Below, in pieces: positions 49,683-52,030 of a stretch of DNA of 52,030 nt (position 1 is the stretch's first letter; each line of letters begins with the position of its first letter). A program made the position numbers and the translations under genes. Origin of the DNA: Rheinheimera sp. 4Y26 (GTDB lineage Bacteria > Pseudomonadota > Gammaproteobacteria > Enterobacterales > Alteromonadaceae); assembly GCF_025245835.1 (NCBI RefSeq), contig NZ_JAOBWS010000018.1:1-52030 (forward strand), written 5' to 3'. Under the pieces are notes generated by a model. That model did not search any database. It was not told the origin of the DNA and worked only from the letters and a program-made list of their open reading frames with translations.

Positions 49683-49768
49683 CTGTGAAGCTGTGAAGCT
49701 GTGAAGCTGTGAAGCTGTGAAGCTGTGAAGCTGTGAAGCTGTGAAGCTGTGAAGCTGTGAAGCTGTGA
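49683..49768. repeat. Octamer microsatellite, 10.75 copies
   Basis: CTGTGAAG is repeated ten times without error (49683-49762), then CTGTGA. It sits between the stops of the thiolase and the greB fragment. Perfect copies indicate recent expansion and a hypermutable site. It is non-coding. Confidence 0.97.
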
Positions 49769-49796: not shown

Positions 49797-50219
49797 TCAA
49801 CTCTGTTGTTCATCGGCATCATCAAGTTCAGACGCATCCAACTCGTCCAGCAAGCGTGCCGCCCAGTCCGGCGCCAGTTCAGCACCTGCTTTAGGGTAAT
49901 AAATCTGGCTGACCAGCCACTCTTTACTGCCCGCCGGTGTTTGCACCACAAAAGTGTCATCCACTTGTTTTTTTAACAAAGCCCGCGCCATAGGGGCATC
50001 AATTGAGATGTAATCTTTGCGGCCATAAATTTCATCGGGCCCGACAATACGGAATTTCAGACAGGCCCCTGCTTCATCTTCAATTTCTACCCAGGCGCCA
50101 AAAAACACTTTACCTTCCTGCTCAGGTGCATAATCGACAATTTTTAAGTCATCAAGCCGCTTACGTAAGTATCTGATCCTACTGTCTATTTGCCGCAAAA
50201 GCCTCTTATTAAACTGATA
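49797..50219 (-). pseudogene. greB: greB, 5'-truncated by a mobile island
   Basis: GreB rescues backtracked RNA polymerase by stimulating RNA cleavage through two acidic residues at the tip of its N-terminal coiled coil. This copy aligns with E. coli GreB from the codon for about Tyr48 (YQFNKRLLRQIDSRIRYL) to the end (KIVDYAPEQEGKVFFGAWVEIE, GRKDYISIDAPMARALLKK), with an extra acidic tail. The preceding codon is TAA (50220-50222), and upstream DNA has no GreB similarity. The lost part includes the first coiled-coil strand and the catalytic Asp/Glu. A TTG at 50198 could start a 133-residue remnant, which would lack cleavage activity. The missing 5' part should lie beyond the island to the right. 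Confidence 0.88.
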
Positions 50220-50247
50220 TTAGTACCACCATAAATCACATACTAAT
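50219..50247. other. Inverted repeat at the island edge (candidate attachment end)
   Basis: ATTAGTA at 50219-50225 and TACTAAT at 50241-50247 are perfect inverted arms separated by 15 bases, starting exactly at the greB/island junction. The layout resembles paired recombinase-binding sites of a tyrosine recombinase core site. Confidence 0.5.
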
Positions 50248-50268
50248 TACTGCTATTCCCCTGCCAAT

Positions 50269-50297
50269 TTTACAATTTTCAGCAAGCTTTCTGTAAT
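50269..50297 (+). promoter_or_regulatory. Candidate gmtY promoter
   Basis: TTTACA at 50269-50274 and TGTAAT at 50292-50297 with a 17-base spacer form a sigma70-like promoter 65 bases before the gmtY ATG. Confidence 0.5.
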
Positions 50298-50361
50298 ATT
50301 TGTATTTATTAGAGCCATCAACTATATACCTGTAACTATTACTTAATGGCTTTTTCAGCAG

Positions 50362-51663
50362 ATGAAATACGTGCTTAAGCGCAGGGTGAGCTACCGTGCC
50401 AATGACTGCAGTAAACCCCTAGTGGTGCACGCTCTTTTTACTCATTCTGGCCTTCTTTTATCACACCTTCGTTTTTTAGAGCGCAACCGTCATAAATCAC
50501 CATCATGGCATGAGCGAAATACATTCGCGGTAGAACTGTTACTGCAATACATACAAGCACATCAAAGCACTGCGCTCTCAGCCATAGAATTACTTCGCTA
50601 CTTTGTTAACTGTCTTTGTTTTGGAACAATAGCCGCTGATGGTTCAGATCCCACATCACTATATTGGTTAGCCCGTCGCATAGATGATGCCAATACCTTA
50701 CTAGGCCATATCAATGCCTATTGCGATTACCTGGATGAGGTGAATGGACGAGACTTGCCAAAGTTAAATCCTTGGCGAAAAGCAACGGCAGCTGAAGAAA
50801 AGATGCTGTGGTGTGCGTATTACCGTCGTTCTGCAAACTGCTTCTTTAATTATCTACATCAGCCAGATAAAGAGCAGATGAGATCGGTAAGGTCTGTTCA
50901 CAAACTTGCACAACCACTCATTCAGATCGAATCGGTGTTCCGATTTCCAGATGAGGAATTTGGGAAATTATTAAAGTATGGATTTCAACGCAGGGACGGC
51001 TCTTGTGACTACGGCAGCATATTGATTTTGCTGCTAATGCACTTCGGTGGGCTTCGTTTATCTGAGTGCTTTCACATATTTACTCATGATGTTTCGATAG
51101 ACCGTTTAACCTTGGCATCAAAGGTGAAGGTATTCCACCCCAGCGCAGGAGCAAGTCCTGAGCCCATGTTTGGTAATCGTAGACAATACTTGATTAGCAA
51201 ATACAGGATGGATCCCAGGAACGCGTATCACAGAACCCATACACTCTACTCAGGTTGGAAAAACCCGTTACTCACTAACAAAGACTATTCTTTTACCGTT
51301 CTGTTTTTTCCTGAAAGTGCTTCTCTGTTATTTACACAGTATCTGCAGCTTTACCTCAGCAACCGCCCATCTGGTAATCATCCATACCTGATATGCAATC
51401 AGACCGGTAAGCCTGAAACAAAGAAAAATTTTCTTAAAAAATATCAGTGTGCGCTGGCTCGTATTGGTCTGACAGCTGCCAAACATGATGGTTTATCACC
51501 TCATGCACATCGTCATGCTTATGGTTATCGGTTAGCTGAGGCAGGTTTCTCCCAATTCGAAATCCAAAAGGCAATGCACCAGAAAAGCCCAGAAAGCTGT
51601 TTGGTCTATATCAAACCGACAGATTCAGAAGTTAGACAAAAAATGAGGGACATCGAACTTTGA
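50362..51663 (+). CDS. gmtY: Tyrosine recombinase, GmtY-like
   Basis: A 433-residue tyrosine recombinase. The catalytic core is complete: Arg232 in FGGLRLSE, His381 and Arg384 in SPHAHRHAYG, His406 in AMHQKSP, and the nucleophile Tyr416 in SCLVY. An N-terminal core-binding region spans about 30-170. Overall sequence and especially the following overlapping repeat gene fit the Gamma-Mobile-Trio recombinase GmtY. It lies at the island end and reads away from greB. The ribosome-binding site is weak (AGCAG). It overlaps the next gene by four bases, indicating coupled expression. Could be a generic Xer-like integrase if GMT assignment is wrong. Confidence 0.8.
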   Translation: MKYVLKRRVSYRANDCSKPLVVHALFTHSGLLLSHLRFLERNRHKSPSWHERNTFAVELLLQYIQAHQSTALSAIELLRYFVNCLCFGTIAADGSDPTSLYWLARRIDDANTLLGHINAYCDYLDEVNGRDLPKLNPWRKATAAEEKMLWCAYYRRSANCFFNYLHQPDKEQMRSVRSVHKLAQPLIQIESVFRFPDEEFGKLLKYGFQRRDGSCDYGSILILLLMHFGGLRLSECFHIFTHDVSIDRLTLASKVKVFHPSAGASPEPMFGNRRQYLISKYRMDPRNAYHRTHTLYSGWKNPLLTNKDYSFTVLFFPESASLLFTQYLQLYLSNRPSGNHPYLICNQTGKPETKKNFLKKYQCALARIGLTAAKHDGLSPHAHRHAYGYRLAEAGFSQFEIQKAMHQKSPESCLVYIKPTDSEVRQKMRDIEL

Positions 51664-52030
51664 GACAAAATGTACGGTTTTATCCGACCTTAGCCGAAGC
51701 AAGCCAAGCGACCATCGTTCTCGGCATCACCACCAGCCCTGAATACAAGCGAAGGTACAAAGAAGACCCACGCCTGCCCGCACACCCCGACGTAGTATAT
51801 AAAGCAGAATGGCAGGGCTGGCTTCATTTCCTGGATAAGTCAAAAGAACCGTTCTATCGGACCTTAACAGAAGCAAGCCAAGCAACCATCGCTCTCGGCA
51901 TCACCACCCGCGCTGAATACAACCAAAGATATAAAGAAGACCCACGCCTGCCTGCAGTGCCCAACGCAGTCTATAAAGCAGAATGGCAGGGCTGGCCTCA
52001 TTTCCTGGGGAAACCAAAAGTACAGTTCTA
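51660..52030 (+). CDS. gmtZ: GmtZ-like integrase with N-terminal repeats (partial)
   Basis: A frame beginning at TTG 51660 (overlapping the gmtY stop in TTGA, with GAGGGA at 51645-51650) is open to the window end. The visible 123 residues are two copies of a 58-residue unit and the first residues of a third: FY.TL.EASQATI.LGITT, then YKEDPRLPA, then VYKAEWQGW.HFL. Such integrase-type repeats occur in large GmtZ-like proteins of Vibrio and relatives. The C-terminal catalytic part is outside the window. Start choice is supported by the overlap and ribosome-binding site; no ATG fits upstream. Confidence 0.7.
   Translation, partial: MRQNVRFYPTLAEASQATIVLGITTSPEYKRRYKEDPRLPAHPDVVYKAEWQGWLHFLDKSKEPFYRTLTEASQATIALGITTRAEYNQRYKEDPRLPAVPNAVYKAEWQGWPHFLGKPKVQF
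51678..52025 (+). repeat. Two 174-bp coding repeats in the gmtZ-like gene
   Basis: 51678-51851 and 51852-52025 encode 58-residue units that are about 80 percent identical; a third unit begins at 52026. Nucleotide identity is also high, so the array can change copy number. Confidence 0.88.

Follow-up and report, generated by a model that had tools for sequence, protein, structure and literature searches.

What has cut greB near the right-hand end of this Rheinheimera sp. 4Y26 sequence, and where does the complete greB of the strain come from? The window analysed here is the whole of contig C9 (52,030 bp), one of the 33 contigs of a 4.08-Mb draft genome, and its end is the end of the contig. 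The initial annotation proposed that a Gamma-Mobile-Trio (GMT) island had entered greB. GMT islands are a recent discovery, known mostly for carrying defence and antibacterial genes, and anti-phage or antibacterial cargo is typical of them. We consider it likely that the island belongs to a distinct GMT lineage, which has its main chromosomal home at one point in greB and provides its host with a spare copy of that gene as insurance.

The interrupted greB locus

The features of the locus are listed below, with coordinates in the window or on contig C5, where the island continues.

49797..50219, minus strand: 3' part of the native greB (codon 48 to stop), severed from its own promoter and start (TIGR01461 profile)
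50214..50219, minus strand: 6-bp crossover hexamer at the gmtY end, TATCAG in the greB sense, which is native codons 48-49; the same codons are found in the empty site of G018
50220..50245, minus strand: island end with inverted-arm motif, GGTACTAA at 50220-50227; TAGTA starts 26 bases from the end, in the greB sense
50362..51663, plus strand: gmtY, tyrosine recombinase, 433 aa (NCBIfam NF040693, 459 bits, cut-off 340)
51660..52030, continuing at C5:1-3457, plus strand: start of gmtZ (58-residue, that is 174-bp, repeats), overlapping gmtY by 4 nt and running off the contig
C5:3454-4077: gmtX (NF040692, 201 bits, cut-off 40)
C5:4099-4581, plus strand: island greB, full-length and foreign, 21 nt after gmtX (TIGR01461, 243 bits, cut-off 171)
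C5:4735 to about 24,000: cargo
C5:24253: far island end
C5:24254-24259: far-end hexamer
Up to C5:24427, minus strand: 5' part of the native greB, to codon 47 near C5:24260 (GreA/GreB profile search of the genome)

Similarity to greB starts exactly at the Tyr48 codon, with an in-frame TAA directly ahead of it, and everything from 50220 onward is island sequence unrelated to greB, which supplies this TAA. The sharp border that the initial annotation had drawn here is therefore confirmed, as is its description of a complete tyrosine recombinase followed by an overlapping gene of 58-residue repeats. Being a fragment, the 3' piece stayed below the cut-off of 171 bits: it matched positions 47-156 of the 156 in TIGR01461 at 158.5 bits. 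We also note that an 8-bp unit, CTGTGAAG, is repeated without error in 10.8 copies between the thiolase gene and greB (window 49683-49768).

The suggested identity of the recombinase as GmtY is borne out by its NCBIfam score, and the residues R232, H381/R384, H406 and Y416, which we take to be catalytic, are all present. The C5 part of GmtZ scored 678 bits against NF047926 (cut-off 600). C9 and C5 share an exact 24 nt at their ends, and a search of the genome found the 174-bp array nowhere else. The trio stands together at one end of the island and both borders are located, in this strain on two contigs joined by the 24-nt overlap and in G016, of the same genus, on a single contig. What a rightward extension had been expected to reveal is all on C5, namely gmtX beyond the remainder of gmtZ and, at the far end, the 5' codons of greB. 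The island measures at least about 26 kb, array copies in the contig gap not being counted.

The empty greB locus that had been proposed as a check was found in G018, also of the same genus: the flanks on both sides of the island match contiguous G018 sequence at 91-94.5%, and the two matches meet inside greB with a 3-nt overlap. This empty site, both borders and a trio over the NCBIfam cut-offs support a GMT island in greB. A contiguous intact greB at this locus of the strain had been named as the finding that would speak against it. The native locus is split; an intact greB does exist, encoding a protein of 160 aa from a TTG start, but it is foreign and lies inside the island.

The cargo comprises a two-component/GGDEF cluster, an alpha/beta hydrolase, a PAS kinase, a ResIII/RadD-like helicase with a small protein and XRE regulators, and UmuD/UmuC-like genes. 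Cargo had been predicted to the right and is there, but its expected anti-phage or antibacterial character is not evident: when 10 cargo proteins, those of the XRE and Umu-like genes left aside, were compared with PADLOC, the matches were confined to shared helicase and two-component domains, the best (helicase) reaching 41 bits. A helicase, a 170-190-aa protein and an XRE/HTH regulator adjoin repeatedly in other islands (L005:15636-17934; L092:12129-14456; L156:6555-8833; and in part L107:16383-17341, a stretch in which the helicase was not seen), and this set is possibly a cargo system of its own.

Recurrence of the split and of the spare greB

An order-wide search of 394 genomes found GmtY relatives in 14, including our own. 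Nine of these were searched for greB in one round; G142, G355 and G415 were left out of the greB examination. The four closest of the nine (G234, G394, G204 and G281, with GmtY 43-58% identical) have greB split at codon 47 together with a full-length greB; the five remoter ones (G102, G119, G162, G255 and G284, 33-37%) have one unsplit greB each, as do four genomes with other GMTs (G001, G011, G055 and G057). GMTs outside the lineage are thus accompanied by a second greB in none of these nine control genomes. The island of G016 is 48 kb long and has the same layout as ours, with a GmtY 82% identical to it.

A scan of a one-genome-per-species collection with two close GmtYs gave no match, and a scan of the same collection with six GmtYs gave 43 loci. 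As the six queries came from greB-split loci, the lineage has been sampled around its greB target. Whole genomes were searched for 41 of the 43 loci (L136 is the same as G281, and the genome of L109 was left out); with G281, G000, G016, G394 and G204 this makes 46 genomes. Hosts include Shewanella, Vibrio, Acinetobacter, Pseudomonas, Marinobacter and Methylomonas. Codon 47 is the point at which the native greB is split in 44 of the 46 and frameshifted in one, and in the remaining genome the gene is intact; the N-terminal part was located in 42 of the 44 genomes whose C-terminal part stands alone. Of the 46, 45 hold a single full-length greB that scores over the cut-off, and the other holds two. 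In all 27 genomes that have the C-terminal part, the full copy and the N-terminal part on one contig, the two parts flank the full copy; these 27 islands span 11.7-97.8 kb, with a median of 17.1 kb.

The position of the spare is nearly constant. Of the 40 loci in which gmtX could be read (39 scanned loci and our own), 36 have greB after it in the same orientation, at a distance of -4 to 42 nt apart from one case of 435 nt; the two genes overlap by 4 nt in 14. The spare is near gmtX but inverted in L117 and L132, and two Pseudomonas islands have it toward the other end, far from the recombinase operon. Start codons of 40 island greBs are TTG (22), ATG (11) and GTG (7). The tip motif GDRS-E/D-N is present in all 41 island GreBs examined for it, with D rather than E in the fourth acidic place in at least those of Pseudoalteromonas and G234. 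The median dN/dS of the island greB is 0.068 (59 pairs, which are not independent), similar to the 0.082 of gmtX (47 pairs), and this ratio indicates strong constraint. In Acinetobacter junii (L143) the open reading frames of gmtY, gmtZ and gmtX are all broken and the island greB is intact; it is intact also in Acinetobacter KCTC 92772, where IS-like genes cut gmtY.

Most native C-terminal parts are still open reading frames; that they have lost their function is deduced from the split itself. Decay of these parts was considered as dating evidence and rejected: a stop turned up in just one of 44 alignments, and the sequence in question begins upstream of codon 48, though a separate genome search flags a TGA in G455. 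Recoding of the target point in the spare, as a source of immunity, was likewise rejected: four of the first six genomes have ADYKENK, but G204 and G281 keep ADYQYNK.

L145, which is partial, was omitted from the rows, and L105 and L136 replaced L091 and L094 of the same genomes. In the GmtY tree, from which L142 and L143 (broken GmtY) were omitted as well, the lineage forms one clade of 44 rows with support 100/99, and eight other GMTs fall outside it. In the greB tree (114 rows and 110 columns, with many forks unresolved), the native parts of our strain and of G016 group with their genus and the island copies do not. The label island or native requires 13 changes on this tree, at least six of them forced by well-supported branches, and a single origin of the island greB is unsupported by this tree of few columns. 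Over the C-terminal part, island and native greB share a median of 57% of residues (39 genomes, range 44-93%); the figure for our strain is 70%. Three genomes, A. sp. S54, A. rudis and G394 (L121, L124 and L092), have a split greB that itself groups with island copies, perhaps because an earlier spare became the next target, or because the copies recombined.

The unit also occurs outside greB. Methylomonas sp. LW13 (L147) has a GMT-greB unit about 1.4 Mb from its native greB, which shows a net 4-bp loss and a frameshift within the 6-bp crossover, possibly an excision scar. In Stutzerimonas (L148, L149) the native greB is intact, the GMT is elsewhere, and a second, foreign full-length greB is on a different contig; this copy adjoins the same large gene as the spare of Pseudomonas PSB18 and presumably belongs to the GMT island. 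The unit is present, too, on two plasmid records of Halomonas sp. THAF12 and on one Pseudomonas megaplasmid, and a P. aeruginosa plasmid gives gmtY and greB matches at similar spacing. One remoter plasmid GMT that was examined has no greB after gmtX. Given the units in Stutzerimonas, in LW13 and on the Halomonas and Pseudomonas plasmids, the greB site is preferred and not obligatory.

Island ends, crossover and a probable circle

The island ends are conserved. At the gmtY end the native greB resumes with TAY and the next codon, in frame, in 43 of 44 cases, and TAGTA lies 26 bases inside the island in 40 of 44. At the far end, codon 47 is followed by a hexamer that differs from the one at the gmtY end in 24 of 27, and beyond the hexamer the island shows TACTA at offset 18, again in 24 of 27.

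This is the placement known from SE elements. According to their published descriptions (PMC10214605, PMC5991714, PMC9345347), these have a 6-bp spacer between inverted end motifs, with the target hexamer at the recombinase end and the hexamer of the circle at the other, and leave no empty site; one of them, SE-6283/Tn6283, targets bcp and carries a bcp homologue. The SE-type arrangement is seen at 43 of 44 and 24 of 27 junctions here, so that our islands resemble SE-6283/Tn6283 in the 6-bp spacer, the placement of the hexamers and the target-gene homologue aboard. They differ in their core genes, which are intA-tfp-intB-srap in SE elements (compared by description only) and the Gmt trio, identified with NCBIfam, here. 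The far hexamer appears to be renewed, since A. modestus and A. sp. S54 have GmtYs that are close to each other but different far hexamers. As only 5 of 27 far hexamers begin with TAY, most islands would seem to have come from elsewhere.

Halomonas sp. THAF12 offers one probable natural circle alongside one integrated copy. Plasmid pTHAF12_b (L158, L160, L162; 47,894 bp) has no mismatch to the island integrated in pTHAF12_a (L159, L161) of the same strain, and the PLSDB table, which is incomplete, shows no replication gene for it. Its joint reads GGTTCTTT-GGTGTA-AAAGAACC, that is, 8-bp inverted arms around 6 bp. From this sequence pTHAF12_b is probably the circle of the island; alternatively, a copy in tandem or an effect of the assembly could produce this joint. 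GGTGTA also stands at the far end of the integrated copy, where the integration of such a circle would be expected to leave it. Under the SE rule pTHAF12_b is not simply the product of the pTHAF12_a copy, because its hexamer is the far-end one and SE circles take the hexamer of the recombinase end.

The role of the spare greB

In this lineage the cut leaves greB codons 1-47 at one end of the island and the codons from 48 on at the other, and the window between them is 6 bp long (codons 48-49). The islands have conserved ends and a complete trio, and they contain a full-length greB of foreign origin, which in most cases follows gmtY, gmtZ and gmtX as fourth gene of their operon. We propose that the spare GreB replaces the broken native one, so that landing in greB would cost the host little and the host would come to depend on the island. 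The island would move as a circle carrying the hexamer of its previous site, which would be left at the end far from gmtY, as in SE and Tn554-type elements, and plasmids probably ferry it. Complementation, movement as a circle and ferrying by plasmids are all deduced from sequence.

Three other explanations need to be weighed. A misjoin at a repeat could mimic a split greB, and our island does span a contig gap within its repeat array; both junctions, however, are internal to contigs, and the layout is found on one contig in 27 genomes, including the single-contig G016 and G394, which makes an assembly artefact extremely improbable. Alternatively, chance could have brought the island greB aboard at the target, and it would since have been kept simply as passive cargo. 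The spares are foreign, were acquired several times on the greB tree, and travel in islands whose cargo is varied, as this would have it, but a spare is present in all 46 lineage genomes, in a nearly constant position and under strong constraint, and is never absent where greB is split. We regard this explanation as very unlikely.

Somewhat less improbable, though still unlikely, is that the island greB serves the island, as a transcript-cleavage factor that helps the long operon of the recombinase to be expressed or lessens conflicts between replication and transcription while the island moves, host GreB being a by-product. Its place within the recombinase operon, with the overlap with gmtX in 14 loci, is consistent with such a role, as is its retention on plasmids and in Stutzerimonas, where the native greB is not cut by that copy. 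Against it, the spare stays intact beside a broken trio in A. junii and an interrupted gmtY in KCTC 92772, it is far from the operon in two Pseudomonas islands, and GMTs outside the lineage have no second greB (nine genomes) and, in the one plasmid GMT, none after gmtX.

Insurance of the host by a spare greB is therefore the reading that we prefer. We can extend it, tentatively and with appreciably less assurance, to a view of the spare as the price of copy-out. If the circles form as in SE elements, without repair of the old site, then landings in greB would last, only islands with a working operon-linked greB would persist, and hosts would depend on them; the far hexamer would record the previous site, mostly outside greB and probably on plasmids.

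The carrying of a spare is already known from other elements, namely SE-6283 with bcp, the recA mobile element (RME) of Vibrio cholerae with recA, and Tn552-II. RME (PMC4405046) splits recA, carries a divergent full recA at the end away from its integrase and forms a circle, and its excision is reported to restore an empty recA site. Our islands resemble it in the split conserved gene, the divergent full copy and the probable circle, and differ in that target and spare are recA there and greB here, and in the usual position of the spare. The Tn554-type Tn552-II, as described in PMC12486829, has three transposition genes followed by a gene like its target, and the donor spacer enters at its right end; gene order and placement of the donor spacer are similar in our islands, and the 7-bp spacer, staphylococcal host and unrelated target are not. 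GMTs at large are not bound to one site, since one Vibrio isolate is reported to have two identical GMT islands in different regions (PMC12039261). With GMT islands, known here through the NCBIfam families and the papers citing them, our islands share gmtY, gmtZ and gmtX in order at one end and variable cargo; they are set apart by the single target point in greB, the spare greB as fourth gene and the repeat-bearing GmtZ. A literature search by title and abstract, with the founding GMT account outside the comparison, found no GMT lineage with greB as fourth core gene and no greB as an island target.

What is added here is the spare greB, the recurrence of the arrangement and the 6-bp rule. The shared behaviour ties GMT islands to SE, Tn554 and RME elements, and the exact ends, the 6-bp crossover and the probable natural circle make GMT movement testable. 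Bringing a spare seems to be how the lineage copes with a target that is a conserved, single-copy gene, and the sole intact greB of these genomes is consequently foreign and mobile.
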